From the IMG/VR virus record IMGVR_UViG_3300030117_008341, positions 1 through 64,000 of that record: DNA of 64,000 bases. One strand, given 5' to 3'. The notes below the pieces were generated by a model. The model was not told the origin of the DNA. It searched no databases and saw only the letters and a list, made by a program, of their open reading frames with translations. Shown here piece by piece: positions 1,358 to 59,282 of the stretch (positions are counted from its first letter, which is position 1; each line of letters opens with the position of its first letter). The position numbers were made by a program, and so were the translations under genes. Source of the DNA: a virus.

Positions 1358-1358
1358 T

Positions 1359-2686: not shown

Positions 2687-2690
2687 CTGT

Positions 2691-4564: not shown

Positions 4565-4574
4565 AGGAGATACG

Positions 4575-40084: not shown

Positions 40085-41425
40085 ATGCCTCTTTATAAGT
40101 TCGGGGCCGGGGATGTATTTTACAATCAGTTAAGAACATACCCCAGTTGTTCTTTTTTGATTATGTCGGGTAGCGAAACAGGCGCCGGCACAGTTTTTTA
40201 TCAGGGAAAGTCAACAGAGCCCGGCTCAATCGTTGCAAATGTTAACGGTGTTCCTGTTGGTAATATAAGCTTATTTGAGCTTAATGTTGATCGTGCCGCA
40301 ACTTCTACTGGTAGAGTTATCGGTTTGTCATCATCTGTTGGTACACAAAACGTTGTGGATAACGGAACAATATATCCGTTTATAGAAAAAGGTTTGTCTA
40401 AAGTAGGCTTTAAGGGTCTTACAAGAGAACAGTTTATCAACGACTATGCCCAAGGCGACGTTATAACTGGTTCTTATTTTATGTCTGCCAGCTTAACAAG
40501 AAGAAAATACATTGCCTCCGCAGGTTTTAACGACGCTAATAGAGATGGCGCTGCTCTTAAAAACAGTCTAGATTTTGCAAAACGCCTCGGAGATCATTAT
40601 GATTTCCCATCTGGATCATCTGGTACCACTACTACTATTGACATTCCATCTATATATTACGGATCAGGTATCAAGCCGGGTACTGTATCTCTCGAAGTGT
40701 ATGTCACTGGAACTCTTCATACGCGATGTCGGGATTCTAGATACGATGGCGCATTGATACAAGATTTTGTGGTTGGGTCAGACCACGGCGCCTCCAGCAC
40801 CCCAACTAATGGCACAGTTGTCGGTTGTATATTATATAAAGAGGGCGTTATAATACTGAACAATACTACTAGCTTCCTCGGCCCTAGCACTAGTGTCCCC
40901 AACACACCCGGCACCGGTACCGAGAGCCGATATTCAAGCCCAGATAACCAATCTATTTCATCTACTGGTAACAATTGGAATTGGACAATATTTGGAGTGG
41001 GGATTCAGAATGGTCCTAACGTGCCGAAACTCGATACTCTCTCTAATGGATGGCAGGTAGCAAAAAAAGTTTATTATAAGATTAATTTCGCAGGCACCCA
41101 CAAAATCCCAACCGTCACAATGCTTGCCAACGCAAACCGAGGCGAGTTAAACTATACGAACAACCCAACTTATATTGAGTTTGGCCAAACGGCTTACAAC
41201 CCAGTAACAAGTTCTACATTCTTTGGTGAGCAACAGTTAAATATCAAGAATATTCACTCTTCTTCCTATTCAGATCCTACTGGGAGCTTAAAGAAGACCA
41301 CATATATTACCAAGATTGGCATTTACGATGATAAGAAAAAGCTTATCGGTGTTGCTTCTGTAGCCAAGCCAGTCAAGAAAACTGAAGATAGAGACTTGAC
41401 ATTTAAATTAAAGCTTGACATCTAG
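40085..41425 (+). CDS. Tail/fibre structural protein, paralogue B
   Basis: A 446-residue protein related to the preceding one through its central and C-terminal domains (see the shared YTNNPTY, GIYDDKKKLIGVA and KLKLDI segments). The N-terminal 130 residues differ and include YPSCSFLIMSGS. AGGAGGTG precedes the ATG by six bases. The -35 box of the promoter for the following replication genes overlaps its last codons, so this gene marks the end of the structural block. A host-contact or fibre role is plausible but unproven. Confidence 0.7.
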   Translation: MPLYKFGAGDVFYNQLRTYPSCSFLIMSGSETGAGTVFYQGKSTEPGSIVANVNGVPVGNISLFELNVDRAATSTGRVIGLSSSVGTQNVVDNGTIYPFIEKGLSKVGFKGLTREQFINDYAQGDVITGSYFMSASLTRRKYIASAGFNDANRDGAALKNSLDFAKRLGDHYDFPSGSSGTTTTIDIPSIYYGSGIKPGTVSLEVYVTGTLHTRCRDSRYDGALIQDFVVGSDHGASSTPTNGTVVGCILYKEGVIILNNTTSFLGPSTSVPNTPGTGTESRYSSPDNQSISSTGNNWNWTIFGVGIQNGPNVPKLDTLSNGWQVAKKVYYKINFAGTHKIPTVTMLANANRGELNYTNNPTYIEFGQTAYNPVTSSTFFGEQQLNIKNIHSSSYSDPTGSLKKTTYITKIGIYDDKKKLIGVASVAKPVKKTEDRDLTFKLKLDI

Positions 41426-41442
41426 CATAATCGTGTTATAAT
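41415..41442 (+). promoter_or_regulatory. Consensus sigma-70 promoter for the resolvase-primase operon
   Basis: TTGACA at 41415-41420 and TATAAT at 41437-41442, separated by 16 bases: both hexamers match the sigma-70 consensus exactly. The expected start of transcription, about 7 bases after the -10, falls at or next to the ATG at 41448, so the message would have almost no 5' leader. Expected to be read by unmodified host polymerase, that is early or middle in infection. Confidence 0.8.
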
Positions 41443-41447
41443 ATAGT

Positions 41448-41975
41448 ATGATATTAGGTTTAGACGTTTCCACAAGCATCACCGGATACACAATCGTAGA
41501 TAACGGTAATATAATCCTTAACGGTGCTTGGGACACAAGAAAATACAAAAACTTTTTTGATAAGGTCGTTCACGTTAAAGACGGTCTTGATAAGATAAGG
41601 AAAGAATATGGAACACGGATTACAGCAGTTTACATCGAACAATCACTCCAATCATTTAGATCAGGGTTTTCATCTGCCAAAACTCTCTCGACTCTTTCTC
41701 GTTTTAATGGCATCGTCTCTTGGTTGGTTTTTGATCAATACGGAATCCAGCCAGAATACATTGCGGCTACTTCTGCAAGGAAACTTTGTGGAATCAAAGT
41801 AAGCCGGGGACAAAAGGCAAAACAAGTTGTTTTAAATTTTTTACTTGACAACGAGCCTAGTTTCGTGATAGAATATACTCGTAACGGTAATCCTAAACCC
41901 GAGTCCTATGACAAAGCTGACTCGATAGTGATTGCAAGGGCGGGGGCCATATGCGAGCAGAAAAACTCAAAATAA
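41448..41975 (+). CDS. RuvC-like Holliday-junction resolvase
   Basis: A 175-residue RNase H-fold nuclease expected to cut four-way DNA junctions made in replication and recombination. LGLDVSTSITGYTIVD at the N-terminus supplies the first catalytic Asp (D6), VYIEQSL the Glu (E64), and YDKADSIVIARAG the C-terminal acidic pair (D155, D158), in the RuvC order and spacing. T4 uses an unrelated enzyme, endonuclease VII, for this job, so this is a substitution typical of some marine phages. The consensus promoter lies directly before the ATG with no clear ribosome site, suggesting leaderless translation. It overlaps the primase gene. Confidence 0.82.
   Translation: MILGLDVSTSITGYTIVDNGNIILNGAWDTRKYKNFFDKVVHVKDGLDKIRKEYGTRITAVYIEQSLQSFRSGFSSAKTLSTLSRFNGIVSWLVFDQYGIQPEYIAATSARKLCGIKVSRGQKAKQVVLNFLLDNEPSFVIEYTRNGNPKPESYDKADSIVIARAGAICEQKNSK
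41845..41874 (+). promoter_or_regulatory. Possible internal sigma-70 promoter for the primase gene
   Basis: TTGACA at 41845-41850 and TAGAAT at 41869-41874 with an 18-base spacer, inside the resolvase gene and about 75 bases before the primase ATG. One mismatch in the -10. Could be chance within coding DNA. Confidence 0.35.
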
Positions 41976-42880
41976 TAAAGAATGTTCTTGGACGAGGCTA
42001 TCAGTCTGGTGAAGAGCATCTATTCAGTTGTCCATTTTGCGGCCATCACAAGAAGAAGATGTCTGTCAATGTGGACAAATCTGTATTCAAATGTTGGATT
42101 TGTGACAAGTCAGGCCGAGATCTAGGCTACATTGTCCGCAAGTTTGGAACCAGAGAAGATCGTGACGAATGGTCCAAGTATGATGACCGTGTTGAAATCA
42201 CAGATTTTGACTTCTTATTTGCGGAGCCTGAAGCCCCTTCTGAGCAGCGCGTCTCTTTACCCGACCAACTAGTCACCTTAACAGGTAAGACGCCTTCTGT
42301 GGCCTCACAGATTGCTTTAAACTACTTATCGAAGCGTGGGATCACAAGAGACGACATTCTCAAATGGAAGATCGGGTATTGCCCTGACGGAGAGTATGCT
42401 GGTCGTGTGGTTATCCCATCATTCAACGAGAACGGCTATGCAAACTACTTTATTGCACGCTCATACGGTGATGCTTGGCCAAGATATAAGAACCCGCCAG
42501 CCTCCCGTGACATTATTTTCAATGAACTGTATGTAAACTGGGATGAAGACATAGTTATAGTAGAGGGCGTCTTTGACGCCATAAAGGCCGGTAATGCAAT
42601 TCCTCTTCTTGGATCAACGCTTCGTGAATCTTCTGCTCTTTTTCAAACCATTATTAAAAGCGGCTGCTCTGTGTATCTGGCTTTGGATGAAGACGCATCC
42701 AAAAAGACGCGCTCCATCACTCGCTTACTTATGAAATATGGGGTCGAGGTTTACGAGATAGACACATCCGGTGTTGAAGATGTTGGAGAAATGACAAAAG
42801 AAGAGTTTAAGCACAGGAAAAACAACGCGGCGATTATAGAAAAAGACAACTATTTATTGCAAAGGCTTTTTGCTGTTTAG
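41951..42880 (+). CDS. DNA primase (zinc finger plus TOPRIM, gp61-like)
   Basis: Makes RNA primers for lagging-strand synthesis, probably with a gp41-like helicase encoded elsewhere. The zinc-binding domain has C27/C30 (SCPFCG) and C48/C51 (KCWICD). A DnaG-type core follows (YLSKRGITRDDILKWKIGY, GRVVIPSFNENG), and the TOPRIM motifs are VEGVFDAIKAG with E205 and LALDEDAS with D246/D248. At 309 residues it is about the length of T4 gp61 (342) and has no helicase domain. It overlaps the resolvase gene by 25 bases. Its last codons contain a late-promoter-like motif that may serve the tag genes. Confidence 0.88.
   Translation: MRAEKLKIIKNVLGRGYQSGEEHLFSCPFCGHHKKKMSVNVDKSVFKCWICDKSGRDLGYIVRKFGTREDRDEWSKYDDRVEITDFDFLFAEPEAPSEQRVSLPDQLVTLTGKTPSVASQIALNYLSKRGITRDDILKWKIGYCPDGEYAGRVVIPSFNENGYANYFIARSYGDAWPRYKNPPASRDIIFNELYVNWDEDIVIVEGVFDAIKAGNAIPLLGSTLRESSALFQTIIKSGCSVYLALDEDASKKTRSITRLLMKYGVEVYEIDTSGVEDVGEMTKEEFKHRKNNAAIIEKDNYLLQRLFAV
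42849..42859 (+). promoter_or_regulatory. Possible late promoter before the tag-gene block
   Basis: ACTATTTATTG inside the last codons of the primase gene, 41 bases before the first tag gene. Ten of eleven bases match the ACTATTTATTA motif, and the distance to the ATG lies within the 24-48 base range of the other copies. It may give the block a late transcript; a chance match in coding DNA cannot be excluded. Confidence 0.4.
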
Positions 42881-42889
42881 GGTCACAAA

Positions 42890-43117
42890 ATGAAAACCAC
42901 CAAATCACAGTTAAAACAAATCATTAAAGAAGAAATGTCAAATGCCCTCAAGGAGCAAGACGGTGAAGAAATAATGTCTGCCATAGAGGACGTGCCAAAG
43001 GCAGCAGAGGACATAGCAGATAAGGTGCGTGATGAGGTTGAAAAAATGGCAGAGCCATCTGGCCTCGACCCATCAGTTTTAATGCAGGCTATTGCAGCGT
43101 TGTTACAAGCAGATTAA
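42890..43117 (+). CDS. Tag-family protein 1 (75 residues)
   Basis: Function unknown. First of six consecutive genes whose products share the N-terminal tag MKTTKSQLKQIIKEE or close variants and then diverge completely. Here the rest is a short acidic helical domain (EIMSAIEDVPKAAEDIADKVRDEVEKM) ending LMQAIAALLQAD. The tag reads as one amphipathic helix. It contains I-K-E followed by E, matching the L/I-x-E cutting rule of T4-type prohead proteases, which suggests a removable head-targeting signal. It lacks signal-peptide hydrophobicity and so is not an export signal. Confidence 0.72.
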   Translation: MKTTKSQLKQIIKEEMSNALKEQDGEEIMSAIEDVPKAAEDIADKVRDEVEKMAEPSGLDPSVLMQAIAALLQAD

Positions 43118-43175
43118 GGGAAAATAAACAGTGAAAACCACCAAATCACAACTGAGACAAATCATTAAAGAAGAA
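42890..43175 (+). repeat. Direct repeat encoding the shared N-terminal tag
   Basis: The first 45 bases of the gene at 42890 and of the gene at 43131 differ at only five positions, four of them at codons 7-9 and one in the start codon (ATG versus GTG). DNA after the tag shows no similarity. More diverged copies of the 45-base unit open the genes at 43640, 44218, 44835 and 45466. Confidence 0.75.
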
Positions 43176-43628
43176 ATAAGCAGCATGCTGAACAAACCAA
43201 GAACAGCAGACCAGTTTTTAGAAATGATTAAGTCTCAGTTTAGGCGGGCGGCAACAGAAAAAACTCTTGAAATGATGGCTAAATACTATGATGCAATGGT
43301 TAAGACCGCAGCCGAAAGAGCACCGCTTCAACCCAGCGACCCAAAAGAGATCGCAGCAGAGATTGGTATTGCACAGGACAGTCCTTACCTACGGTGGGCT
43401 ACTTTCCACCTAAACAAGCTTCAACAAGTACCCAGAGAGGCTTATGAAATGCTGCCCGCAAGTGACGAACTTACCGCTATGCATTACGACCGCCTCGCAG
43501 CAAAAGAGAAAAAGCGAGCAGAGCGAGAGGCAGAGTTGCGCCGCCCGCGTACACCCGAAGAGAAAAAAGCAGCAGCAATCAAATTTGGTCAAGATATGGC
43601 CGCAGGCAAATACGGCCCGCTAGATTAA
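43131..43628 (+). CDS. Tag-family protein 2 (165 residues)
   Basis: Starts at GTG 43131 with MKTTKSQLRQIIKEE, nearly identical at DNA level to the previous gene. The body is helical and charged: FLEMIKSQFRRAATEKTLEMMAKYYDAMVKTAAERAP, then YLRWATFHLNKLQQVPREAYEML, and a Lys/Arg/Glu-rich C-terminus (AAKEKKRAEREAELRRPRTPEEKKAAAIK). The basic end could bind nucleic acid. No known domain is recognised. AAGGGAAAA precedes the start. Its placement and tag make it a member of the same cohort of possible head-packaged proteins. Confidence 0.72.
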   Translation: MKTTKSQLRQIIKEEISSMLNKPRTADQFLEMIKSQFRRAATEKTLEMMAKYYDAMVKTAAERAPLQPSDPKEIAAEIGIAQDSPYLRWATFHLNKLQQVPREAYEMLPASDELTAMHYDRLAAKEKKRAEREAELRRPRTPEEKKAAAIKFGQDMAAGKYGPLD

Positions 43629-43639
43629 GGAACAGTATT

Positions 43640-44221
43640 ATGAAAATCACAAGATCACAACTTAAACAGATTATCAGAGAAGAGTTGGAAGAAGGCGGTC
43701 TCGCTGGGCACTACGACAAGGATCGCGACATCGCCGTATCTGACGCTCTCGTTAATGCGGTGCTTGACATGCAGGAGATGCGTGGCGATGCGTATGCTGT
43801 AAAGGTTCTTAGAGAGATGGCTAACGACATTGAAAAAGAAATGGCCGCAAAAGACGGCCCCACTATGCAAGAGGAAGTGAAAAAACAAAGTATAAAGGCA
43901 ATAATCAAGCCCATTGGTCGTATGACTCGGTACATCTTGAAAACACTCAATTATGATGAAGATCGCGATGTTGACTACGGCATACCGGGGGAAGATCCGG
44001 GATTTGTAGATGATAAACAGTGGGTTGAACTTAAAAGTCTTGTTCAAACAACTCTTTCCAAGATTCCAAAGGCAGGAAGGGCCGATGCTATGTATGATGA
44101 AATTATGACCAACATTCAAAAACCTCGCCTTCATCGCACAGAGATTGCCGACTTTGCGTCTGCTTTTGATGAGTATTTTATCGGGTTAGAGGCTATGGTA
44201 AGGGATGGAGATTTAAGATGA
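43640..44221 (+). CDS. Tag-family protein 3 (193 residues)
   Basis: Opens MKITRSQLKQIIREELEEGG. The body, residues about 25-190, is a mostly helical acidic domain with no motif I know: DIAVSDALVNAVLDMQEMRGD, YAVKVLREMANDIEKEM, a proline-containing GIPGEDPGFVDDKQW linker, and a C-terminal FASAFDEYFIGLEAMVRDGD helix. The gene ends four bases into the next (ATGA), so members 3 and 4 are translationally coupled. Function unknown; the tag groups it with its neighbours. Confidence 0.72.
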   Translation: MKITRSQLKQIIREELEEGGLAGHYDKDRDIAVSDALVNAVLDMQEMRGDAYAVKVLREMANDIEKEMAAKDGPTMQEEVKKQSIKAIIKPIGRMTRYILKTLNYDEDRDVDYGIPGEDPGFVDDKQWVELKSLVQTTLSKIPKAGRADAMYDEIMTNIQKPRLHRTEIADFASAFDEYFIGLEAMVRDGDLR

Positions 44222-44838
44222 AAATCACCAAAGAACTTTTAGAGCAAATGATTGAGGAAGCAGCATCGGAGTATGTCTATGGTGTTAAAAACCCCGGTCG
44301 TGTTGCTAATCAATACAAGATCAAAACAATCAAAAAAGTTATCTTTGAAGAGTTATCCGCAAACCTTACTGAGGACGGACACGAAGATACATCCTCAGCT
44401 ATAAGAAAGTTAAAGACTTCTATTGAAGACGCAGGAGAGATCCTACAAGGTCTCCAAGCACACCACGGTGATTTACCATCTTGGTGGATGGGCAAAGTAA
44501 CTATCGCTGCTGACTATCTTAACAAAGCCAGAGACTATTTCCTTGTTTCCGGTGATGTGATGCAAGAAGAAGAGTTGGACGAGCGATGCCAGAAAGGTTA
44601 CAAGACCCATCCAACACGCAAAACAAAAGAGATGTACGGCAAGACTTACCGCAATTGTATTAAAGCAGAAGGCGAGGAAGTTGAAGAGCGCAAACTAAAA
44701 CCGGGCGAGAAAAGAAAACTTAAACGACTTGAAAAAGAAGTTCCCAAAAAAGACTTTACTGACCAGTATGGAAAGGAAGGCGAATCTATTTATTATGCTA
44801 CCTTGACTAAAATGGCGAAAAAGGATAAGAAAAAATGA
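44218..44838 (+). CDS. Tag-family protein 4 (206 residues), diverged tag
   Basis: The most diverged tag: MKITKELLEQMIEEAASEY, with M-I-E-E replacing I-I-K-E but still offering an I-E-E/A site. Residues about 45-115 are helical (DGHEDTSSAIRKLKTSIEDAGEILQGL ... ADYLNKARDYFLVSG). A segment ELDERCQKGYKTHPTRKTKEMYGKTYRNCIKAEGEEVEER (about 120-160) has two cysteines and looks like a self-contained small domain; the C-terminus is Lys-rich. That segment recalls short 'CWxGYK..GTKKM.GK..pNCv' repeats found in many marine-phage proteins, whose role is unknown. It overlaps the next gene by four bases. Confidence 0.72.
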   Translation: MKITKELLEQMIEEAASEYVYGVKNPGRVANQYKIKTIKKVIFEELSANLTEDGHEDTSSAIRKLKTSIEDAGEILQGLQAHHGDLPSWWMGKVTIAADYLNKARDYFLVSGDVMQEEELDERCQKGYKTHPTRKTKEMYGKTYRNCIKAEGEEVEERKLKPGEKRKLKRLEKEVPKKDFTDQYGKEGESIYYATLTKMAKKDKKK

Positions 44839-45452
44839 AAATCACTAGAGAAAAACTAAAGCAAATCATCAAGGAAGAACTTGAGAGTGCCCTTAGTGAA
44901 CAACCACGCGCCATGATCGGCGCAGGTATACCCGGCATTATGAAACGCCTTAGCCCCGTTCCGGACCATCTGGTACAAAGCTATAAAGGAAAAAAGAAAG
45001 TCTATAACACGAATAATGGAAATATTGTGGCATTAGATGATAGGGGCATTCCTTTTGTTGCATATGCTGATGAGATAGAGAAGAACCCCAATGCGGACTA
45101 CCAATTCGCGATAGACACGCTTAAAAAAAATGGCTATGTAGAAGCTTCTCTAAGTGTCCCTATGTCTCCGGCAAATCTTGAAGCACTCACTCTCGGAGCT
45201 ATCAAAGGGGAAGAGATCGACCGTGGCTATGTACAAAGAGCGCGCCCAAACTTTAAGAATCAGGACAAAGATATCCCCCGGATTAAACAAGTCATCGGCA
45301 AGAGAGAACTATCAGACCCAAGTATGCCTAACTGGGATCCCAGCAAAAATCAAATAGTTTACTTGGGATCACGGACACTTCGTTCCGGAGATCAGGAAAT
45401 CTACTTTAAGACATCAAATACTCACAAGTATTATAAAGCATTGTCCAGATAA
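44835..45452 (+). CDS. Tag-family protein 5 (205 residues)
   Basis: Opens MKITREKLKQIIKEELESALSEQ. The body is a mixed alpha/beta domain (NNGNIVALDDRGIPFVAYAD, YQFAIDTLKKNGYVEASLSVPM) and ends with QIVYLGSRTLRSGDQEIYFKTSNTHKYYKAL. No enzyme motif is apparent. The gene is coupled to member 4 by ATGA overlap. The body is unlike the others, showing that only the tag is shared. It might act on a host target if delivered with the DNA, but the sequence gives no hint which. Confidence 0.72.
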   Translation: MKITREKLKQIIKEELESALSEQPRAMIGAGIPGIMKRLSPVPDHLVQSYKGKKKVYNTNNGNIVALDDRGIPFVAYADEIEKNPNADYQFAIDTLKKNGYVEASLSVPMSPANLEALTLGAIKGEEIDRGYVQRARPNFKNQDKDIPRIKQVIGKRELSDPSMPNWDPSKNQIVYLGSRTLRSGDQEIYFKTSNTHKYYKALSR

Positions 45453-45465
45453 AGGGAATAACATT

Positions 45466-45915
45466 ATGAAAACCACCAAACAACAACTTAGACAAATCAT
45501 CAAAGAAGAGTTAGAGGTCATCCTCACAAACGAGGAGGCAGGCGAACTCTTTGGCGAGGGTGTTGAAGCAGAGTTAGAAGAAGAGTTGAACGAAGATCTG
45601 ACTACTATTATGCAGAATCTTACACCTGAGAATCTTGATTTGATTGTTAGGTCTATCATTCAGGTTGGCACAACATTTGGTGTTCCGATGCTCGCCGCCG
45701 CCCTTGGTAAGTTGGGCCTTGAAGCAGCACAGGCAGCAAGAACAGCCGGCAAGGCGAAAACGATGATTGGTGATAAGGATTCCGGCAGGTTAGTTGATTT
45801 TCTGTATCATGAAATAACAGGTTATAGAGATTTTAAAGGGCAGGATAAGCAGTCACTTGAAGATGCCGAAAAAGAGTTCCCAATGGCGCCCGCCCGTCCC
45901 CCTATGCCTAAATAA
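45466..45915 (+). CDS. Tag-family protein 6 (149 residues)
   Basis: Opens MKTTKQQLRQIIKEELEVIL. The body contains an acidic stretch (NEEAGELFGEGVEAELEEELNED), a hydrophobic helical part (LDLIVRSIIQVGTTFGVPMLAAALGKLGLEAAQAART) that could touch a membrane, and a Pro-rich end (FPMAPARPPMPK). It is the last member; the consensus promoter of the recombination nuclease begins 11 bases after its stop, so the block ends here. I see no terminator in the gap. Confidence 0.72.
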   Translation: MKTTKQQLRQIIKEELEVILTNEEAGELFGEGVEAELEEELNEDLTTIMQNLTPENLDLIVRSIIQVGTTFGVPMLAAALGKLGLEAAQAARTAGKAKTMIGDKDSGRLVDFLYHEITGYRDFKGQDKQSLEDAEKEFPMAPARPPMPK

Positions 45916-45925
45916 AAAATAATCC

Positions 45926-45954
45926 TTGACAACAAGTTTGTAACAGGTTATAAT
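45926..45954 (+). promoter_or_regulatory. Perfect sigma-70 promoter for the fused recombination nuclease
   Basis: TTGACA at 45926-45931 and TATAAT at 45949-45954 with the ideal 17-base spacer. Both hexamers are exact. It lies in the 65-base gap before the TTG start at 45981, leaving room for a normal leader with AAGGGG. Host polymerase should use it without phage factors. Confidence 0.85.
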
Positions 45955-45980: not shown

Positions 45981-48900
45981 TTGAAGATAGCACATATCGC
46001 GGATACACACATCCGCAACTATAAGTATCATAGAGAGTATCGTGAGATATTCGATCTTATCTATGATAGACTGAAAACAGAGAAAGTTGACTACATTGTT
46101 CACTGCGGAGATCTCGCACACACAAAGACACAACTTTCTCCTGAATACTTTGACTTGGCGACATCGTTCTTAAAGAACCTTGCCGACATTGCGCCGACCT
46201 ACATCATTCTTGGCAACCACGACGGTAACCTAAAGAATGAACACAGGCAAGACGCAATCACGCCAATCGCAAACGCACTCCGACACCCGAATCTCAACCT
46301 GTTAAAGAACGCAGGCGAGACGATTGTCGAAGGCAACATAGCGTTTAACGTTCTTTCCGTCTTTGATGAAGAGAACTGGGTGAAGCCGACAAGCGACAAA
46401 CGCATTAACATTGCGCTGTATCACGGCTCTGTGTCCGGTGTTACAACCGACACAGGCTGGGTAATGACGCACGGCGACCACCCTATCACAGTCTTTGAAG
46501 GGCACGACTATGTGTTCCTCGGGGACATCCACAAAACAAACCAAATCCTCGATGACGAGGGACGTGTAAGGTATCCGGGCTCCACTGTTCAGCAGAACTT
46601 TGGTGAGACGGATGACAAAGGCTTCCTGCTCTGGAACATCCAAAGCAAAGAAGACTTTACTTGTGAACACGTTGTAATCCCAAACCCCAAGCCTTTTATA
46701 ACAATAAACCTAACCCCCACTGGGCGTATGCCCAAAGGCTTGACCGTGAAGAAGGGTGCAAGATTACGACTTGTGTCTAACAATAATCTATCTCTTGAAG
46801 CGATGCGAAAGGCAGTTGATGTCGCAAAGCAACGCTTCAAGCCCGATACTATTACATTCTTAAACCGCGCAGCAGGGGAGCGTGGTAATGTTGAAGAAAT
46901 CACGGACAGTATTCAACAAGACGATATGCGTAATCCACAGATCCAAGAGGAACTTATCCGCGAGTATCTAGTAGATTACCAAGCCAGCGAAGAACTGATG
47001 AAAAAGGTTCTGGACCTTAATACTCTCTACATTAAGAAGGCAGAAGAGTCCGAGGAGATCTCTAGAAACATCAAGTGGCGTATCAACGATCTACAGTGGG
47101 ATAATCTGTTTAACTACGGTGAAGGCAATAGAATTGATTTTAATAAACTAAACGGAACAGTTGGTATCTTCGGTAAGAACTACTCCGGTAAATCCAGTGT
47201 GGTGGACAGCTTATTATATACTTTGTACAACACAACGTCTAAGAATGAGCGTAAGAATGTCAACATTATTAATCAAAACAAGGACGAAGGCTCTGGCGAG
47301 GTTGTAATTACTATTGGCGATGAGCAGTATTACGTCCGTCGCGGCTCGTCAAAATACACAAAACGACTCAAGGGTGTGGAAACTCTTGAAGCCAAAACTG
47401 ATCTTGACTTCTTCAAGGTCGGCCCAGACGGAGAAAAGGTAAGTTTAAATGGCCTCACAAGAAACGACACAGACAAAAACATCAGAAAGGTATTCGGAAC
47501 TCTTGATGACTTCCTTCTCACTAGTTTGTCTAGCCAGTTGGATAGTCTTTCCTTTATTAGGGAAGGTAGCACAAAACGGAAGGAAATCTTGGCAAAGTTT
47601 CTCGACTTGGAAATCTTCGAGAAAAAGTTCAGACTAGCGAAGGAAGATGCATCTGATATGCGAGGTGCTTTGAAGCGCCTTGAAGGACGCGACTATGATA
47701 CAGAGATCGAAGAAGCAGAACAAGAGCACACTCAATGTGAAGAGGAGTTGGATGACCAAAAGGTTAAGTGCGCCGACTTAAGGCAAGAAGTTATTGATCT
47801 TAGAGACAACATTACAGAGATAGAAGGTAAGATTGCATCTATCCCTGCTGAGATGATTGATATTGCAAAAGTCAAAATAGATATTAGACAAAGGCGTCTG
47901 GACCTCACCTCGGCACAAAAAGATCTTGAACAAGACAAGAAAACACTCAAAGATAAAAAGAAACTTACCAAAGATATTGATAAGTTCTTGGCAGGTTATG
48001 ACGTTACAGATCTTGGCGATAAAGAAAAGAGGTGCGATCAGCTAGGCTTTGAGATAATGGATTTGGACAGAGAAATGATCCAGATCGTGAAAAAAGCTGC
48101 ATCTCTCGACGATCCCGGCTTCTTGCGTGGTTGCAAGTGTTTGCACGAAGCAGAAGAAGCTTTAGCACAGAAGCCAGACCTTGAACAAAAAATCGAAGAA
48201 CTTTCTCAGGAACTTGAAGGGCTTGATGTTGAATCTGTCAAGAAAAGCCTTGAGCAGTATCGTTCGCTAGCAGATAAAAAGAACCAAACGACGAGAGATA
48301 TCACAACCACAGAACTTGCTATTGCTCGTAACCAGAATACGATCAATCGTCTGGCCACAGAGTTGTCTAATCTAAAAGACAAAGAAACATCTTATGAAGA
48401 CAACCGTGAAGCTATTGAAAACTTGGAAGCACTCCTGACTGAGAAAGACGGCTTAGACGCAGATATATCTATTAAGGAAGGTAAGCTAGAGGCTTGCAAA
48501 GATAAAATTGTTGATTACCACAGAAGAGTTGGCTCGTTAGAGCAAAAAGTTATCAACATTAAGGATCAGAAGAACGACTATCTTGAGCTACGCGAACAGT
48601 TCGCAGCCTACGATCTTTACATGCGTTGTATGCACCCTAACGGTATCGCATACGATGTTATCAAGAAGAAGCTTCCAGTTATCAACCAAGAGATAGCAAA
48701 GGTTCTTACAAACCTAACAAACTTTGAAGTCCTTTTTGAAGAGGATGGAAATAAGCTTGATATCTTTATCAAGCACCCGAAGCATGACCCTCGTCCACTC
48801 TCTATGGCTTCGGGAGCAGAGAAGACAATGGCCGCAATGGCTATCCGTCTTGCTTTCCTTGCAGTGTCAAACCTGCCTACAAGCGACATTATGGTGCTTG

Positions 48901-49079
48901 ATGAACCGGGGACAGCATTGGATGAGGAGCACTTACAAGCATTTACCCAACTTTTGGACATGATTAAGGTGCATTTCAAGACAACACTTTTGATTTCCCA
49001 TTTGGATTCTTTGAAAGATGTTGTTGATTTAACACTTGACATTTCCAAAAAAGAAGGTTATGCTTATATAAACCAATAA
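45981..49079 (+). CDS. Fused SbcD-SbcC (gp47-gp46/Mre11-Rad50-like) recombination nuclease
   Basis: A 1032-residue fusion of a DNA-end nuclease and its ATPase, which resect ends for phage recombination-dependent replication. Residues 1-340 are the calcineurin-like phosphoesterase: D8/H10 (ADTH), D44 (HCGDLAHT), N79-H80-D81 (GNHD), and FLGDIHK. Residues about 365-1032 are the Rad50/SbcC part: Walker A GKNYSGKSS (398-406), long coiled coils (about 560-900), signature LSMASGAEKTMAA and Walker B DIMVLDEPG (969-977). At the coiled-coil apex only CKC (718-720) is present instead of CxxC. T4 keeps these as two genes. Start TTG 45981, after AAGGGG. Confidence 0.9.
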   Translation: MKIAHIADTHIRNYKYHREYREIFDLIYDRLKTEKVDYIVHCGDLAHTKTQLSPEYFDLATSFLKNLADIAPTYIILGNHDGNLKNEHRQDAITPIANALRHPNLNLLKNAGETIVEGNIAFNVLSVFDEENWVKPTSDKRINIALYHGSVSGVTTDTGWVMTHGDHPITVFEGHDYVFLGDIHKTNQILDDEGRVRYPGSTVQQNFGETDDKGFLLWNIQSKEDFTCEHVVIPNPKPFITINLTPTGRMPKGLTVKKGARLRLVSNNNLSLEAMRKAVDVAKQRFKPDTITFLNRAAGERGNVEEITDSIQQDDMRNPQIQEELIREYLVDYQASEELMKKVLDLNTLYIKKAEESEEISRNIKWRINDLQWDNLFNYGEGNRIDFNKLNGTVGIFGKNYSGKSSVVDSLLYTLYNTTSKNERKNVNIINQNKDEGSGEVVITIGDEQYYVRRGSSKYTKRLKGVETLEAKTDLDFFKVGPDGEKVSLNGLTRNDTDKNIRKVFGTLDDFLLTSLSSQLDSLSFIREGSTKRKEILAKFLDLEIFEKKFRLAKEDASDMRGALKRLEGRDYDTEIEEAEQEHTQCEEELDDQKVKCADLRQEVIDLRDNITEIEGKIASIPAEMIDIAKVKIDIRQRRLDLTSAQKDLEQDKKTLKDKKKLTKDIDKFLAGYDVTDLGDKEKRCDQLGFEIMDLDREMIQIVKKAASLDDPGFLRGCKCLHEAEEALAQKPDLEQKIEELSQELEGLDVESVKKSLEQYRSLADKKNQTTRDITTTELAIARNQNTINRLATELSNLKDKETSYEDNREAIENLEALLTEKDGLDADISIKEGKLEACKDKIVDYHRRVGSLEQKVINIKDQKNDYLELREQFAAYDLYMRCMHPNGIAYDVIKKKLPVINQEIAKVLTNLTNFEVLFEEDGNKLDIFIKHPKHDPRPLSMASGAEKTMAAMAIRLAFLAVSNLPTSDIMVLDEPGTALDEEHLQAFTQLLDMIKVHFKTTLLISHLDSLKDVVDLTLDISKKEGYAYINQ

Positions 49080-50484: not shown

Positions 50485-51098
50485 TGGCTACAACAATGGA
50501 AATCGTTCAAGGTATCTCGCAAGTAATGGCAAACAGTTACGATGGAGCCCTTGACGAAAATGGTGAGCCTATCAAGGTTGGCCTCAAAAGAGAGGAGGGT
50601 CACCCAATTTTAGACTCTCGCGTCATGGACGGGTTTAAAATTTCTTTTCATGGCAACAAACTTTGTATCCACTATCATGCTGAAATTAAACTTAAAGATG
50701 TTTATGCGAATGGATTTGAGTCTGACTTGGAGCAAATGATTGAAGACATCGCTTCCTTTGTCAAGAAAGAATATAGAAAGGTTACTGGCAGTTCGTTAAC
50801 TCTGACTAAAGATGGGGAAATGGATGCACTTGTGCAAAACACATCTAGAGTCCGCACTTTTGTCCAAGCCAAATGTTTCTATATCATTGGCGGATTAGAT
50901 GATAGTACCGAGGGTATTAGCGATCCATCCGAAGATAAGCTTGAAGACAACTTCCGCAAGTTTTTAGAACAGGACGCTGGCGATAAGAAGGCCAAAAATG
51001 ACAAGCGCAAAGCACCTACCCCCGGCCAGCCCGTTTACGCAGGCAAGGGCAAAGTCCACGCTAGAAAGGATGTAAATAGCACTTACAAGGCTGAGTAA
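50484..51098 (+). CDS. Conserved phage protein preceding terminase, function unknown
   Basis: A 204-residue protein. The first 160 residues look like a compact alpha/beta domain (GFKISFHGNKLCIHYHAEIKLKDVY, LEQMIEDIASFVKKEYRKVTG, VQAKCFYIIGG), followed by a disordered Lys/Pro-rich tail (KKAKNDKRKAPTPGQPVYAGKGK). It directly precedes the large terminase with a one-base overlap, where a small terminase subunit often lies, but I see no helix-turn-helix. A packaging or virion-assembly role is inferred from position alone. Confidence 0.68.
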   Translation: MATTMEIVQGISQVMANSYDGALDENGEPIKVGLKREEGHPILDSRVMDGFKISFHGNKLCIHYHAEIKLKDVYANGFESDLEQMIEDIASFVKKEYRKVTGSSLTLTKDGEMDALVQNTSRVRTFVQAKCFYIIGGLDDSTEGISDPSEDKLEDNFRKFLEQDAGDKKAKNDKRKAPTPGQPVYAGKGKVHARKDVNSTYKAE

Positions 51099-52684
51099 TG
51101 CCAGCGGGTCTATCCAAAAAAGAAACTGTCAAAGAGATAGTTAAGTGCGGTAAAGACCCGTCTTACTTTATCAACAACTATGCTAGAATCTCGCATCCCC
51201 TGAAAGGTTTGATACCATTTAAGACGTATCCCTTTCAGGATGAGTTGCTTGTAGATTTTAACGACTACCGCTTTAATGTTATTCTTAAAGCTAGACAGTT
51301 GGGCATCTCAACTATCACAGCCGCATACATTGTGTGGCTTTTGCTATTTTATCGAGACAAGAATGTCTTGGTTATTGCAACTAAGTTCCAGACTGCTGCA
51401 AACTTGGTCAAGAAAGTCAAAAACATTATGCAGAATGTTCCCCCTTGGCTACGCATCGCAGACATTAAGATTGATAACCGCACGTCGTTCGTCCTGACTA
51501 ACGGCTCCGAAGTTAAGGCTGCTTCTACATCTGGTGATGCTGGTCGTTCGGAAGCTTTGTCCCTTCTCGTTATTGACGAGGCCGCACACGTTGATGGGTT
51601 AGAAGAGTTGTGGACCGGCTTGTATCCTACGCTATCTACTGGTGGTCGCTGCATTGCTCTATCTACACCAAACGGTGTTGGCAACTGGTTCCACAAAACC
51701 TATATTGAAGCCGAGCAAAATGTAAACGACTTTCATCCTACCAACTTACCGTGGAATGTTCACCCTGACCGTGACGATGAGTGGTTTGAAAAAGAGACAA
51801 GAAATATGTCTCGTAGACAAATTGCCCAAGAGCTAGAGTGCAACTTCAACGCTTCGGGCGAAACTGTCATACATCCGGAAGACTTAGAAAGACTAGTATT
51901 CGGCGCTACAGAGCCGATGTATAGAACCGGCTTCGATCGTAACTTGTGGCTTTGGGAGCAATACAACCCAGAGGCCACATACATGATGTCCGCAGACGTT
52001 GCCCGTGGAGATGGGGCAGATTTTTCTGTTTTCCACATAGTTAAATTAGAAACTATGGAGGTCATAGGTGAATATCGTGGCAAACCAAACCTTGAGGAAT
52101 TTGCTTCTATTCTTGATTCCACAGGTAGAGAATTTGGCAATTGTCTGCTGGTGGTTGAGAATAACAGTCTAGGAATATCAATCCTAGAGAAGCTGCAAGA
52201 CAGAGAATACCCCAATCTTTATCACTCGATAAAGGGTACTCATGAGTACATTGATCAGTTACGAGCAGAATCAATCAACAATTCAGTTCCCGGTTTTACT
52301 ACTTCATCCAAGACTCGTCCACTTATCGTGGCGAAAATGGAGGAATTCATACGAAATAAACTAATTACAATATATTCTTCACGCATAGTAGACGAGTTTA
52401 AGACATTTATATGGAATAACAACAAGGCACAGGCTATGAGAAGTTATCACGATGACTTAGTTATGGCATTGGCAATCGCTTGTTGGGTTAGAGACACAGC
52501 CTTAGAGGTTAGCAAGAAAGACATAGAGTACAGAAGGGCTATGATGGATTCAATGAGGCTCAACACAAGACAAATCAAGACTACAATACCGGGAATGGAA
52601 GGGCACCAACAAGGCGTGTGGAGCGAAAAGGCTAAGAAAGAAATGCAACAACACAAAGATTTTATTTGGCTTATTAAGGGATAG
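51098..52684 (+). CDS. terL: Terminase large subunit (gp17-like)
   Basis: The motor that pumps DNA into the prohead and cuts concatemers. The ATPase domain has Walker-A-like KARQLGIST (64-72), and Walker B with D160/E161 in LLVIDEAAH. LSTPNGVGNWF is coupling motif III. The RNase H-fold nuclease domain has D300 in SADVARGDGADF, E354 in LVVENNSLG and D452/D453 in YHDDLVMAL. At 528 residues it is a little shorter than T4 gp17 (610), lacking N- and C-terminal extensions. The next gene is the portal, five bases on, the partner on which it docks. Confidence 0.95.
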   Translation: MPAGLSKKETVKEIVKCGKDPSYFINNYARISHPLKGLIPFKTYPFQDELLVDFNDYRFNVILKARQLGISTITAAYIVWLLLFYRDKNVLVIATKFQTAANLVKKVKNIMQNVPPWLRIADIKIDNRTSFVLTNGSEVKAASTSGDAGRSEALSLLVIDEAAHVDGLEELWTGLYPTLSTGGRCIALSTPNGVGNWFHKTYIEAEQNVNDFHPTNLPWNVHPDRDDEWFEKETRNMSRRQIAQELECNFNASGETVIHPEDLERLVFGATEPMYRTGFDRNLWLWEQYNPEATYMMSADVARGDGADFSVFHIVKLETMEVIGEYRGKPNLEEFASILDSTGREFGNCLLVVENNSLGISILEKLQDREYPNLYHSIKGTHEYIDQLRAESINNSVPGFTTSSKTRPLIVAKMEEFIRNKLITIYSSRIVDEFKTFIWNNNKAQAMRSYHDDLVMALAIACWVRDTALEVSKKDIEYRRAMMDSMRLNTRQIKTTIPGMEGHQQGVWSEKAKKEMQQHKDFIWLIKG

Positions 52685-52688
52685 ATAA

Positions 52689-54662
52689 ATGGCAGATCAA
52701 AATAGAAACCCAAGAAACCCAAGATCAGAATTGTTTAAGGCTCTGACTAGAGTTTTCTCTGGTCCACTAACAACTAGAAGAACACAGACCGGCCGTAGAC
52801 TGAGAAGGTATCAACTGGACAAATTCCAGAGTAGATTTACTTCTGCTAGTGGTCAGTCTTTTAAAACCGCTCGTTCATATAATGCATACAATATGCAACT
52901 GGGGATTATGAACCAACACAACCGCACCGAGAGGTATGTTGATTTTGACCAGATGGAGTACACTCCAGAGATAGCGTCAGCCCTTGATATTTATGCTGAT
53001 GAGATGACCACGCATTCCTCGTTACAGCCAATGCTTAATATTAAATGTTCGAATGAAGAAATTAAAGCGGTCCTTGATTCCTTGTATCACAATATTTTAA
53101 ATATCGATCACAATCTTTTCGGCTGGTGTCGCTCTATGTGCAAGTATGGGGATTTCTTCCTGTATCTTGACATAGATGAGAAGTTCGGTATTAAGACCGG
53201 CATTGGACTGCCTTCTAGGGAGGTGGAGCGCCTCGAAGGTGAGGACGAGACAAATCCAAACTATGTCCAGTACCAGTGGAACACAGCGGGTATAACTTTG
53301 GAAAATTGGCAAATGGCCCACTTCCGAATCCTTGGGAACGACAAGTATGCACCATATGGAACGTCTGTTTTAGAACCTGCCCGTCGCATCTTTCGTCAAC
53401 TAATTCTTTTGGAAGATGCTATGATGGCATACCGTATTGTTCGCTCTCCGGAGCGCCGAGTAATAAAAATTGATGTTGGCCAGATCCCTCCTAATGAAGT
53501 AGAGCAGTATGTTCAAAAAGTCATCACATCAATGAAACGAAACTCTGTTGTTGACGAAAACACAGGCCGAGTTGATCTTCGATACAACCCTCTGTCTATT
53601 GAGGAAGATTATTACATCCCCGTTCGCGGAGAATCAAAAACAGAAATTACATCTTTACCCGGTGGAACATTTACCGGTGACATCGACGACGTTAAATACC
53701 TCAGAGACAAACTATTCTCTGCTCTTAAAATTCCTGCTTCCTATCTAACAAATGCTGAAGGTGCTGAGGAGGATAAAACAACGCTTGCCCAGAAAGATAT
53801 TCGTTTCGCCAGAACAATTCAGAGACTACAGAGAGTTGTGGTGTCTGAGCTAGAAAAAATTGGTATTATCCATCTTTACACTTTAGGATTTAGAGACGAA
53901 GATTTGTTAAATTTTGAGCTTGCACTTAATAATCCGTCCAAAATCTCGGAATTACAAGAGCTAGAGCACTGGGATAAAAAGTTTGCAGTCGCGGGCGCAG
54001 CCACAGAAGGCTTCTTCTCACGCCGTTGGGTCGCCGAGCATCTATTCTGTATGTCCCACGAAGAGTTTGAAAGAAACCAAAGAGAAATCTTCTACGATCG
54101 TAAGTTTGATGCTTCGCTTGCAGCCGTTGCAGAGGCGATGCAAGAAGAGGCAGCAGGAGCAGGCCTTGGTGATCTTGGAGGCGATGAAGGCCTTGGAGAT
54201 CTTGGGGATCTTGGCGATGAGGACCTTGGTGGCGATCTCGAAGATCTCGGCGGTGATGAGCCCGCAGCAGAGGAGCCAGCAGAACCTGAGATTGGTGATG
54301 ACCCACTCTTAGCCGCCCCCGGTCGAAGAGAAGATGATGGTTATACGACCCCCGGATCCAAAGGTAAGGTTTATTATCCTGTTAAGAAAGGACGCGACAA
54401 CAGGGCAAAAGGTGCCATGAAGCGTCACCGTTCATCTGTAGCAGGTACAAATATGGATCCTCGCAAGACTTTCCCCGGTAAGAGTGGTTATGGAGGCTTA
54501 GATTCCTTAGCCAAGGGGATGTTTGAATCGAAAGAAACTAATTATGATAATGGTTTTAGAACCGAGGAAGAAAAGATACATAATACTAACTTTGAAGTCA
54601 AAAGACTATTGGAAAGTTTAGGTAACTCAACGGAGATTAGCAATGAAACTAAGGCACAATAA
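52689..54662 (+). CDS. Portal vertex protein (gp20-like)
   Basis: Forms the dodecameric ring at one capsid vertex through which DNA passes. MNQHNRTERYVDFDQMEYTPEIASALDIYADEMT (about residues 75-108) and DDVKYLRDKLFSALKIPASYLTNAEGAEEDKTTLAQKDIRFARTIQRLQ (about 335-385) are strong T4-type portal signatures. At 657 residues it is longer than T4 gp20 (524). The extra is largely a C-terminal acidic repeat (LGDLGGDEGLGDLGDLGDED, about 490-540) and a basic segment. It overlaps the following gene by 20 bases in another frame. Confidence 0.93.
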   Translation: MADQNRNPRNPRSELFKALTRVFSGPLTTRRTQTGRRLRRYQLDKFQSRFTSASGQSFKTARSYNAYNMQLGIMNQHNRTERYVDFDQMEYTPEIASALDIYADEMTTHSSLQPMLNIKCSNEEIKAVLDSLYHNILNIDHNLFGWCRSMCKYGDFFLYLDIDEKFGIKTGIGLPSREVERLEGEDETNPNYVQYQWNTAGITLENWQMAHFRILGNDKYAPYGTSVLEPARRIFRQLILLEDAMMAYRIVRSPERRVIKIDVGQIPPNEVEQYVQKVITSMKRNSVVDENTGRVDLRYNPLSIEEDYYIPVRGESKTEITSLPGGTFTGDIDDVKYLRDKLFSALKIPASYLTNAEGAEEDKTTLAQKDIRFARTIQRLQRVVVSELEKIGIIHLYTLGFRDEDLLNFELALNNPSKISELQELEHWDKKFAVAGAATEGFFSRRWVAEHLFCMSHEEFERNQREIFYDRKFDASLAAVAEAMQEEAAGAGLGDLGGDEGLGDLGDLGDEDLGGDLEDLGGDEPAAEEPAEPEIGDDPLLAAPGRREDDGYTTPGSKGKVYYPVKKGRDNRAKGAMKRHRSSVAGTNMDPRKTFPGKSGYGGLDSLAKGMFESKETNYDNGFRTEEEKIHNTNFEVKRLLESLGNSTEISNETKAQ

Positions 54663-56012: not shown

Positions 56013-56020
56013 AGGTTAAA

Positions 56021-56421: not shown

Positions 56422-57036
56422 ATGGGAAAATCACTTTTACGAGAATATTACGCACTTTGTGATGGTGGCGTCTGTCAAGACTTACTGACTGAAGAAGAAA
56501 AGAAGTTGATGTCCGCCGGCAAGAAGTTTTACATGACCGGCTGCATGCAGAAGTTTGATACACCAAACGGAAACGGTCGCGTTTATTCCAAAGAGATCCT
56601 CCAACGCGAAGTAGAAAACTATTGGAAACTTGTCAAGGAGCGTAGAGCACTTGGTGAGTTAGACCATCCCGATGACTCTGTTATTAACTTAAAGAATGCA
56701 TCTCACCTTGTAACAGACATGTGGTGGGACGGCCCCGCTCTTATGGGCAAGGTCGAGGTTCTAGATACACCATCAGGCAACATTTTAAAACAACTGGCTA
56801 ACTCTGGTGTCACACTTGGCATTTCATCCCGTGGCCTTGGGTCAGTCAAAGAGGTTCGCGGAACTACAATGGTCGAAGACGATTTTCAACTTATCTGCTT
56901 TGATTTCGTCTCGGAACCATCTACTCCCGGTGCTTTCATGCATTCCGATAAAAGAATGCGAGAACACAAAGAACCAAATATTTTTACAAAAGCAGATAAG
57001 ATAAACAGAATCTTAAATAATATTTTGAGAGATTGA
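56422..57036 (+). CDS. Prohead core protease (gp21-like)
   Basis: A serine protease that matures the prohead by cutting scaffold, capsid and internal proteins after L/I-x-E. I choose ATG 56422, six bases after GGAG, over the in-frame TTG at 56410. MTGCMQKFDTPNGNGRVYSKEIL opens the fold; the catalytic His is H82 in LGELDHPDD and the Ser lies in GISSRGLG (S135/S136). IICFDFVSEPSTPGA-like sequence (LICFDFVSEPSTPGAFM) follows as in the family. At 204 residues it is close to T4 gp21 (212). It precedes the scaffold and capsid genes that are its substrates. Confidence 0.9.
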   Translation: MGKSLLREYYALCDGGVCQDLLTEEEKKLMSAGKKFYMTGCMQKFDTPNGNGRVYSKEILQREVENYWKLVKERRALGELDHPDDSVINLKNASHLVTDMWWDGPALMGKVEVLDTPSGNILKQLANSGVTLGISSRGLGSVKEVRGTTMVEDDFQLICFDFVSEPSTPGAFMHSDKRMREHKEPNIFTKADKINRILNNILRD

Positions 57037-57037
57037 G

Positions 57038-57466
57038 ATGAAAAGAACAGAACTTAAAAAATTAATAAAGCCATTAGTAAAAGAATGTGTCCAAGAGACG
57101 ATTTTAAATGATGGTCTTTTATCAAATATAGTCTCTGAGGTAATGCAAGGAATGGGAAACCAGTTCCTCGTAGAAAATAAAGAACAGGTTGTTCCCACAA
57201 TGTCTAACGAAAACAGTGTACAACTAGAACAACTAAAAGAAAGACAACAAGAGACTAGAAAACGATTGCTTGATGAAATAGGTCACGATGCTTACAATGG
57301 TGTTGACCTTTTTGAAGGCACGACGCCTATTAGAGATAGCGGGCAACCCTCCGCGACGGCTCAAGCGAACCCAATGTTTGGTCAGGATCCTGACGATGCA
57401 GGCGTGGACATTTCATCGATCGTCGCATTAGGTGGAAAAAACTGGAAAGCTTTAGCGAGTAACTAA
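57038..57466 (+). CDS. Head-region protein with tag-like N-terminus
   Basis: A 142-residue protein starting MKRTELKKLIKPLVKECVQE, an amphipathic helix that loosely resembles the tag of the six genes at 42890-45915 (MK-x-T-x-x-L-K-x-x-I). A coiled-coil stretch (SVQLEQLKERQQETRKRLLDEIG) and a conserved-looking end (ATAQANPMFGQDPDDAGVDISSIVALGGKNWKAL) follow. Directly behind the protease gene, it could be a core protein that is cleaved. The function is unknown, but the C-terminal block is familiar from marine T4-like phages. Confidence 0.7.
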   Translation: MKRTELKKLIKPLVKECVQETILNDGLLSNIVSEVMQGMGNQFLVENKEQVVPTMSNENSVQLEQLKERQQETRKRLLDEIGHDAYNGVDLFEGTTPIRDSGQPSATAQANPMFGQDPDDAGVDISSIVALGGKNWKALASN

Positions 57467-58310: not shown

Positions 58311-59282
58311 ATGCCAACACTCTTAGAACAAGCTATTATTGATGCACAAGAACTTAGAGACGCCGCGCTAAAGAACGCCGAGTCTACTATTCTAGAAAAG
58401 TATAACAACGAAGTGAAGAATGTTGTTGAAACCCTCTTGGAGCAGGAAGAGGAAATGATGGGGGCTATGGAAGAACCTGCCTTCGCCGCTGCCGAAGAAG
58501 AGGAAATGTGTCCTTGCCCGGACAAGGAAGAGGAAGAGACCGTAATGTTCAGTCTTGATGACCTAAAAGCCATGGCTGATGAACTTGACGGTGATGCTCT
58601 TGGGACTCCCGAGGATCAAGAAGATCTTATGACTGATCTTGGAATGGAGCCCGAAGAAGAGGAAGACACACTTCCCCTTCAAGAAGATCTTCAGTTGGTT
58701 GAAGAAGAAGTTGAACTCGATGAAGCTACAATCAAAGAACTTGTTGAAGAATTGGTTGTTGATGTTGTGCCTACCAAGAGTGGCTGGCTAGCAACTCCTC
58801 AAGGCGAGATGCAATATGCAGAAGAATTAGAATTGGCTAGACTGGCTAGCACAGAGGCCCAAGAGCAGATTAAAGCTCTTAAGGATGCCCGTGACCGTCT
58901 AACCATCACAAACGAATCTTTGACAAGCGACAATAAGAAGCTTGTTGAGGGCATCTTAGCATTGAAAGAGAAGGTTGAACAAACCCTCTTGGAAAATGCG
59001 AAACTACTCTATATGAATCAGGCATTGAATAGTGCCTCCCTGAATGAGCGACAAAAGTCAAACGTTGTCGAGTCTATTCGCAAGGCTGATTCTGTTGAAG
59101 AGGCGAAGGTAATATTTGAAACCCTTCAAAGCGCAGCGGGCGATTCTACTCGTAGAAAGCCAAAATCGTTGAGCGAAGCAATCAGTAGACCTTCATCGAC
59201 ATTGCCAAGACGAAGAAAAGAAAGAGCACAAGGGGAAACCATTGTGAAGGATCGATTCCAAAGATTGGCAGGACTTAAATGA
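58311..59282 (+). CDS. Prohead scaffolding core protein (gp22-like)
   Basis: The internal scaffold that shapes the prohead and is degraded by the protease. It is 323 residues, with very acidic segments (EEQEEEMMGAMEEP, PEEEEDTLPLQEDLQLVEEEVELDEA), a long central coiled coil (EQIKALKDARDRLTITNESLTSDNKKLVEGILALKEKVEQTL), and a basic C-terminus with LSEAISRPSST, typical of gp22 proteins and thought to contact the capsid shell. Several L-x-E and I-x-E sites are present. Immediately upstream of the capsid gene, the standard T4-like order 21-22-23. Confidence 0.86.
   Translation: MPTLLEQAIIDAQELRDAALKNAESTILEKYNNEVKNVVETLLEQEEEMMGAMEEPAFAAAEEEEMCPCPDKEEEETVMFSLDDLKAMADELDGDALGTPEDQEDLMTDLGMEPEEEEDTLPLQEDLQLVEEEVELDEATIKELVEELVVDVVPTKSGWLATPQGEMQYAEELELARLASTEAQEQIKALKDARDRLTITNESLTSDNKKLVEGILALKEKVEQTLLENAKLLYMNQALNSASLNERQKSNVVESIRKADSVEEAKVIFETLQSAAGDSTRRKPKSLSEAISRPSSTLPRRRKERAQGETIVKDRFQRLAGLK

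Follow-up and report, generated by a model that had tools for sequence, protein, structure and literature searches.

The DNA analysed here (the window) comprises bases 1-64,000 of the 81,268-base IMG/VR virus record IMGVR_UViG_3300030117_008341. At 42,890-45,915 it carries six adjacent plus-strand open reading frames (ORFs) that begin with a common 15-residue N-terminal tag, all of them where a first-pass annotation of the sequence had placed them. The encoded proteins have 75 (gene 1, 42890..43117, tag 42890-42934), 165 (gene 2, GTG start, 43131..43628, tag 43131-43175), 193 (gene 3, 43640..44221, tag 43640-43684), 206 (gene 4, 44218..44838, tag 44218-44262), 205 (gene 5, 44835..45452, tag 44835-44879) and 149 (gene 6, 45466..45915, tag 45466-45510) amino acids. 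Over tag positions 2-15, 67 of 84 residues are majority residues, whereas 20,000 shufflings of the six sequences gave 24.7 on average and never more than 34. The bodies behind the tags show no mutual likeness (no BLASTP match at E<1 among the six from residue 21 onward), and the tags of genes 1 and 2 differ at 5 of 45 bases, the remaining pairs at 6-18. An L/I-x-E triplet closes the tag and ends at residue 14 in all six. The common tag, the unlike bodies, the five base differences and the closing triplet had been described in the first-pass annotation, and each was confirmed. Additional L/I-x-E triplets are found at residue 22 in genes 1 (LKE|Q) and 5 (LSE|Q) and at residue 18 in gene 3.

In gene 4, a decayed older tag can also be made out around residues 38-53, although the tag profile alone scores it weakly (1.5 bits). 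Residues 38-117 of gene 4 align to residues 8-88 of the tagged ORF L069:3368-3631(-) (59% over 81 amino acids), and the gene resembles an older tagged gene with a new tag and some 30 further residues set in front. Two or more tags occur in 16 of 667 tagged ORFs over all loci, overlapping loci counted. Under other copies of the tag, genes 1 (L105, L060 and L048) and 4 have clear body relatives. Those of gene 2 are moderately similar (in L429, L430 and L431, at best 36-41% over residues 1-88), and those of genes 3 and 6 are weak matches over short stretches. For the gene 5 body, the sole match in viral_contigs is a near-identical contig, and seven other matches span residues 1-28 at most. No credible family was found for the six bodies in Pfam (best E 0.002, under the curated cut-off) or PHROG (best E 0.017). 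Three of the bodies are basic, with isoelectric points (pI) of 8.76, 9.03 and 9.24. The same six tags recur at 68144-70770 of contig G063 (106.5 kb; protease 100% identical), where no additional match was found at E 0.05.

The tag is widespread among viral sequences. At least 120 stretches in viral_contigs match its degenerate DNA pattern, and in genome_contigs, a 257 Gb collection covering bacteria and archaea, no exact match to the pattern was found. Within the 120 stretches, 310 ORFs fit a looser tag regular expression. A set of 280 distinct bodies of at least 55 amino acids, the window's six included, forms 198 BLAST clusters, with 165 singletons and a largest cluster of 38 under single linkage. 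The consensus is MKITKSQLKQIIKEEL, and conservation fades toward about residue 22. Fixed tag residues use varying codons, for example all six leucine codons at position 8; because the codons vary while the residues stay fixed, the peptide is what is kept. At identical residues, tags within a locus share 0.70 of codons versus 0.46 expected from the codon usage of the locus, and tags of different loci share 0.56 versus 0.44. Codon bias as the sole source of the shared codons was rejected on these values, which agree with the first-pass proposal that tag DNA has been copied between genes.

Among annotated phages, all 12 tested carry the prohead protease family phrog_207 and three show tag matches at E 0.1; the tag is therefore a feature of part of the T4-like world. 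Matches were found in the cultured Flavobacterium phage immuto (MW353175, host Flavobacterium sp. LMO8; one, E 4e-6, in immuto26A_191, QQO91870.1, start MKKSQLRQIIKEAL), in the 484-kb uncultured phage LR756508 (19 at E<=0.1) and in Microcystis phage Mel-JY01 (two weak ones, E 0.01 and 0.04). The profile had no matches in T4 (NC_000866), HTVC008M, P-SSM3 and six others. Overall, profile matches range from 1 to 19 per record. A tblastn search of the phage collection with the bare tag gave no matches, which for so short a query, perhaps masked as low-complexity, is no evidence of absence. The tags of LR756508.1 lie at about 143-243 kb and 440 kb, around head genes, with further groups near 190 and 219 kb. 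A literature search of titles and abstract starts found no description of the tag and no immuto genome paper.

The T4 prohead protease gp21 cleaves after L/I-X-E (PMC9026906). Since E14 was demanded by the search expression, the residue-14 site is no test beyond the window. Residues 16-30, which are in no search pattern, hold a further L/I-x-E in 151 of 266 tagged proteins, compared with 80.3±6.5 (maximum 109) in 2000 rounds of shuffling within each protein over those residues. Moreover, L or I stands two places before residue 21 or 22 in 92 of 167 cases when that residue is E, and less often when it is another residue, for example in 5 of 36 when it is D and 8 of 41 when it is S. The phage's own capsid protein contains LLKE|ASSMAAG after residue 59, likely its own cleavage site by analogy with FLTE|A of T4 gp23.

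The genomic position of the tags was assessed in 80 loci picked by protease similarity alone (the best 80 of 341), with tags called at 12 bits or more. Tagged genes were found in 50 of the 80 loci, and all 91 starts lie on the protease strand. The 1 kb before the protease holds 38 starts versus 7.2 expected (distinct tags, 31 versus 5.8), and the region from -10 to -6 kb, an island upstream of the terminase gene, holds 37 versus 10.7 (30 versus 8.7). Meanwhile, 2 starts versus 22.3 expected (2 distinct tags) fall between -6 and -2 kb, and 1 versus 37.1 (1 versus 30.1) beyond +1 kb. Repeated near-copies were rejected as the source of the clustering, as the distinct-tag count keeps the enrichment; the positional P values assume independence, which related loci violate.

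In the window, the tag block is flanked on the left by genes for a RuvC-like resolvase (41448..41975, +) and a DnaG-type primase (41951..42880, +), both conserved as the left flank of the island. On the right follow genes for an SbcCD-like nuclease (45981..49079, +), which in relatives has tag genes on both sides, the terminase large subunit (51098..52684, +), which forms the right border of the tag islands, a gp20-type portal protein (52689..54662, +) and a gp21-type prohead protease (56422..57036, +; phrog_207, E 1e-52; ORF from 56410, ATG at 56422 taken as the start). Slices were taken from 20 records and from three further fragments. Within the extent of each slice, 22 of the 23 show, with differing bodies, the order RuvC, primase, tags, SbcCD, tags, terminase, portal, tags, protease. 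The exceptional slice, L404, has ten tags and no backbone genes. Additionally, L409 has two extra tags before the primase gene, and L409 and L419 each have one tag after the protease gene.

Co-occurrence with the protease was examined in 30 long tag records, namely the window's own and 29 distinct records of at least 26 kb among the matches listed (80 of 120). The random comparison set comprised 33 of the 35 listed records above 20 kb, with L150 and L171 left out. phrog_207 was detected in 20 of 30 tag records versus 1 of 33 random records (Fisher p 5e-8), although the random records are overall shorter and therefore had a lower chance of holding a protease. The major head protein family phrog_138 occurs in 12 of the 30. 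The tag profile had no match in the 33 random records, with the 30 tag records as the positive control. Of the ten tag records lacking the protease, two (G007 and G012) break off at the portal gene or close to it; G007, G008, G009, G010 and G012 carry a gp6-type baseplate gene; and G008, G009 and G010 match window genes left of the island in the same order. The idea that these ten are phages of another kind was rejected in part, given the breaks at the portal edge and the five gp6-type genes. Wide occurrence of the tag in phages without a gp21-type protease, which the first-pass annotation had named as counter-evidence to its idea, was not found: T4-type head or baseplate genes are present in 25 of the 30 records, and the other five are fragments.

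Two other leaders accompany the tag. Leader 2 ends ENWxxFLxE or similar. A stricter form of its expression was applied to slices of 19 protease-bearing tag records, of which 7 gave matches. The 15 ORFs so found divide into 8 that flank the protease and 7 located over 10 kb upstream of it, in the islands. A near confinement of leader 2 to the protease flank was rejected on the latter (7/15), and with ORFs in both places it therefore uses the same hot spots as the tag. A wider expression found 137 distinct ORFs over all loci, many by chance; 70 have L/I-x-E at the motif end, where it was not demanded. The T4 genes ipII and ipIII begin with MKTYQEFIAE, which by eye is similar to leader 2, and this T4 leader is cut as MKTYQEFIAE|A. 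Leader 3, M(A/P)xRKNxKxIDPRYFM(D/N)EK, was found in 23 distinct cases, 21 of which have L/I/V-x-E in the next 20 residues. It recurs on otherwise unrelated ORFs of the same islands (L103:2407-2661, L058, L117, L264 and slices L400-L417).

The leaders are also exchanged on common bodies. Sixteen body pairs link a tagged protein to an ORF of leader class 2 or 3, and eight of these are exchanges, in which each start has its own leader and the body is common: L082/L103, L059/L058, L062/L264 and L289/L013 between the tag and leader 3, and L066/L273, L329/L346, L021/L118 and L065/L039 between the tag and leader 2. The other eight were discarded because what they have in common is remote from the leader or belongs to a longer protein. 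In L082/L103 the bodies, 92% identical, start at the residue directly after VLE and LSE. For two pairs, L329/L346 and L065/L039, the start of the alternative leader is an internal Met of the called ORF. As the three leaders are interchangeable on the same bodies and spots, and one of them is similar to the T4 leader and partly clustered at the protease, they point to one common task, entry into the prohead.

Recognisable domains are rare among the tagged bodies. In a Pfam scan of 115 tagged proteins, at least 111 had no match at E<=0.001, and four families were matched, none by more than one member; FliG_C was matched in one of the 115. Twenty longer tagged proteins included one GNAT acetyltransferase (L071:76-627, E 7e-6) and two further matches under the cut-off (E 0.005-0.008). 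By extrapolation from T4, the tagged bodies may be effectors.

In T4, the first ten residues of the internal protein IPIII are needed for packaging, and the capsid-targeting sequence (CTS) alone directs foreign proteins into heads, with CTS fusions carried on into cells (PMC9026906). The internal proteins of T-even phages are described as diverse defence proteins whose one common part is the CTS (PMC3012670). From the interchangeable leaders and this T4 work, we read the tag as CTS-like. The T4 CTS is 10-19 residues long. We give a probability of roughly three in four to the reading that the tag is a protein-level CTS-like leader, through which a freshly translated protein would dock on the prohead core. 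Cleavage by the gp21-type protease would then follow the L/I-x-E that ends at residue 14 or a second such site around residues 18-22, and the freed body would remain in the head with the DNA and most likely be ejected into the next cell, where the cargo would act early against the host. Cargo genes lie in fixed islands, one between primase and SbcCD, one between SbcCD and terminase and one immediately before the protease; bodies come and go there, and leaders are copied or exchanged. We infer docking, cleavage, head residence, ejection and early action by analogy with T4. The first-pass suggestion of a modular leader read together with a gp21-type protease is supported by the presence of the protease, its co-occurrence with the tag, the protease-adjacent position in relatives, the L/I-x-E enrichment, the leader exchange and the codon sharing. 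Its further elements, injection and effector function, would extrapolate from the T4 case.

Several points weigh against this reading. The likeness of the tag to the T4 CTS is one of kind and not of sequence. The 457 distinct bodies are mostly acidic (median pI 4.97, 72% below 6 and 18% above 8), and T4 internal proteins are basic. Within the protease-centred loci, 25 of 28 matches to the leader 2 expression lie within 2 kb of the protease, an enrichment that is partly circular, as the expression was written after viewing protease-flanking ORFs; likewise, 3 of 42 rows of the tag profile were taken from beside the protease. In L082 the triplet is VLE, which departs from a strict L/I-x-E. Five of the 30 tag records (G014, G016, G017, G018 and G027) have neither head nor gp6 genes. 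Among 57 protease loci with enough flank, the window's nearest relatives included, 19 have no tag or leader 2 within about 2 kb, and some of these, such as L280, show weak tag-like starts under the cut-off. The window itself has no tagged gene beside the protease, and its block lies among replication genes behind a sigma-70-like promoter.

This promoter had been raised as an objection in the first-pass annotation. A 12/12 match is indeed present at 41415..41442 (+), upstream of the RuvC, primase and tag block, and a second match lies downstream of the block at 45926-45954; in the 10 kb scanned, 28 promoter-like sites were found versus 16.2 expected from shuffles. As an objection it is weak, because the T4 ip genes are also far from the T4 head genes (ipI, ipII and ipIII at 65-74 kb, head genes at 103-107 kb). 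The T4 ip genes are expressed early.

The strongest rival, which we nevertheless consider unlikely, holds that the tag does target the prohead but that the proteins are core or scaffold assembly accessories, cleaved or retained and never injected. The position of tag genes beside protease, portal and capsid genes would suit it, as would the near absence of recognisable enzymes among the scanned bodies and the fate of the T4 core proteins gp22 and gp67, which gp21 cuts to fragments (PMC9026906). Unlike assembly proteins, however, the bodies vary between relatives (198 clusters and 165 singletons among 280), and the number of tag profile matches per record runs from 1 to 19. A role of the tag in recruitment, bringing early proteins to a complex of phage or host origin (for instance the replisome or RNA polymerase), appears less probable still. 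Two of the three islands flank replication and recombination genes, and the sole block of the window is of that type, with the 12/12 promoter upstream; but the third hot spot lies inside the head cluster at the protease, and the L/I-x-E enrichment, the exchange with a T4-CTS-like leader and the tie to phrog_207 also speak against recruitment. Loading of the cargo by the leader into the tail tube or baseplate, in the manner of contractile injection systems, is very improbable. Injection would be possible either way, and the phage has gp6- and gp25-type baseplate genes, but the protease-centred loci have a single tag start in the stretch 1-10 kb past the protease, and the link is to the prohead protease, which in T4 acts before tails join. 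Finally, a function of the 45 shared bases at the DNA or RNA level, as a promoter, translation enhancer or mobile element whose peptide is devoid of any role, was already disfavoured and is scarcely credible, since the residues are fixed while the codons vary, even though tag codon sharing within a genome exceeds codon usage as if DNA had been copied.

Judged from its terminase, portal, protease and major head proteins (phrog_2, 213, 207 and 138), all of T4 type, the source virus is a T4-like phage. The major head protein is of gp23 type (59324..61123, +). Directly behind the protease gene lies a gene for a small protein (57038..57466, +) with the conserved start MKRTELKKLIKPLVKEC; among its relatives the start MK(K/R)xELKxLIKPLVKEC is kept and the remainder is variable, and its product possibly belongs to the prohead core and might be what the leaders dock on. 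A putative scaffold gene (58311..59282, +) was assigned by its location between the protease and capsid protein genes and its Glu-rich product, which has no family match. The gap between portal and protease genes (55470-56326) holds two small genes that recur in most relatives displayed, the second membrane-like with a CTLC/CPMC motif. A bS21-like ribosomal protein gene (57966-58241) is located inside the head cluster, and many relatives have similar-looking small basic ORFs at this spot by eye. A late sigma factor gene lies at 7017, and baseplate wedge genes lie at 17277 and 17781. In a plus-strand scan, the exact T4 late promoter TATAAATA marked neither the tag block nor the head genes. Additionally, four nucleotide-sugar epimerase-like genes, a cysteine dioxygenase-like gene and a UDP-glucose dehydrogenase-like gene are consecutive at 1347-6262.

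On a wider scale, a large uncultured T4-like lineage may possess a general head-loading system, with three swappable leaders, fixed islands able to capture nearly any small ORF and supply it with a leader, and a huge, hardly studied pool of proteins delivered together with the DNA at the very onset of infection, many probably counter-defence; we rate this picture at somewhat less than an even chance. If the CTS-like reading is true, the 15-residue motif would be a search key for injected phage proteins that are mostly invisible to homology, and the islands would be places to seek anti-defence proteins. The T4 curiosity would become a general loading system, and the tag a natural head-targeting tag with known exchange partners. 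The cultured phage immuto carries one tag, which makes a direct test possible.

The DarA and Hdf proteins of phage P1 are delivered into the host. By their description in PMC12810830, these anti-restriction proteins tied to head morphogenesis are like the proposed cargo. Salmonella phage SPN3US and phiKZ are similar in having many internal head proteins with propeptides cut by a gp245-type protease, two of them with short N-terminal propeptides of 20-24 residues, but the accessible part of PMC10052503 mentions no short leader common to numerous unrelated small proteins. Closest in kind are IPI-IPIII of T4 with their CTS, where a short N-terminal leader on unrelated small bodies likewise has L/I-x-E at its end, a gp21-family protease is encoded in the same genome and the cargo varies between relatives (PMC9026906). 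Unlike in T4, the leader here is MKITKSQLKQIIKEE and not MKTYQEFIAE, and the tag profile finds no match in T4. The cargo genes are more numerous (six in the window, 19 profile matches in the 484-kb record), their bodies are mostly acidic whereas those of T4 are basic, two additional leaders occur on the same bodies, and the islands are fixed beside the primase, terminase and protease genes. Judged from sequence, the tag system appears to be a CTS-type variant that is larger and more modular than the T4 case.

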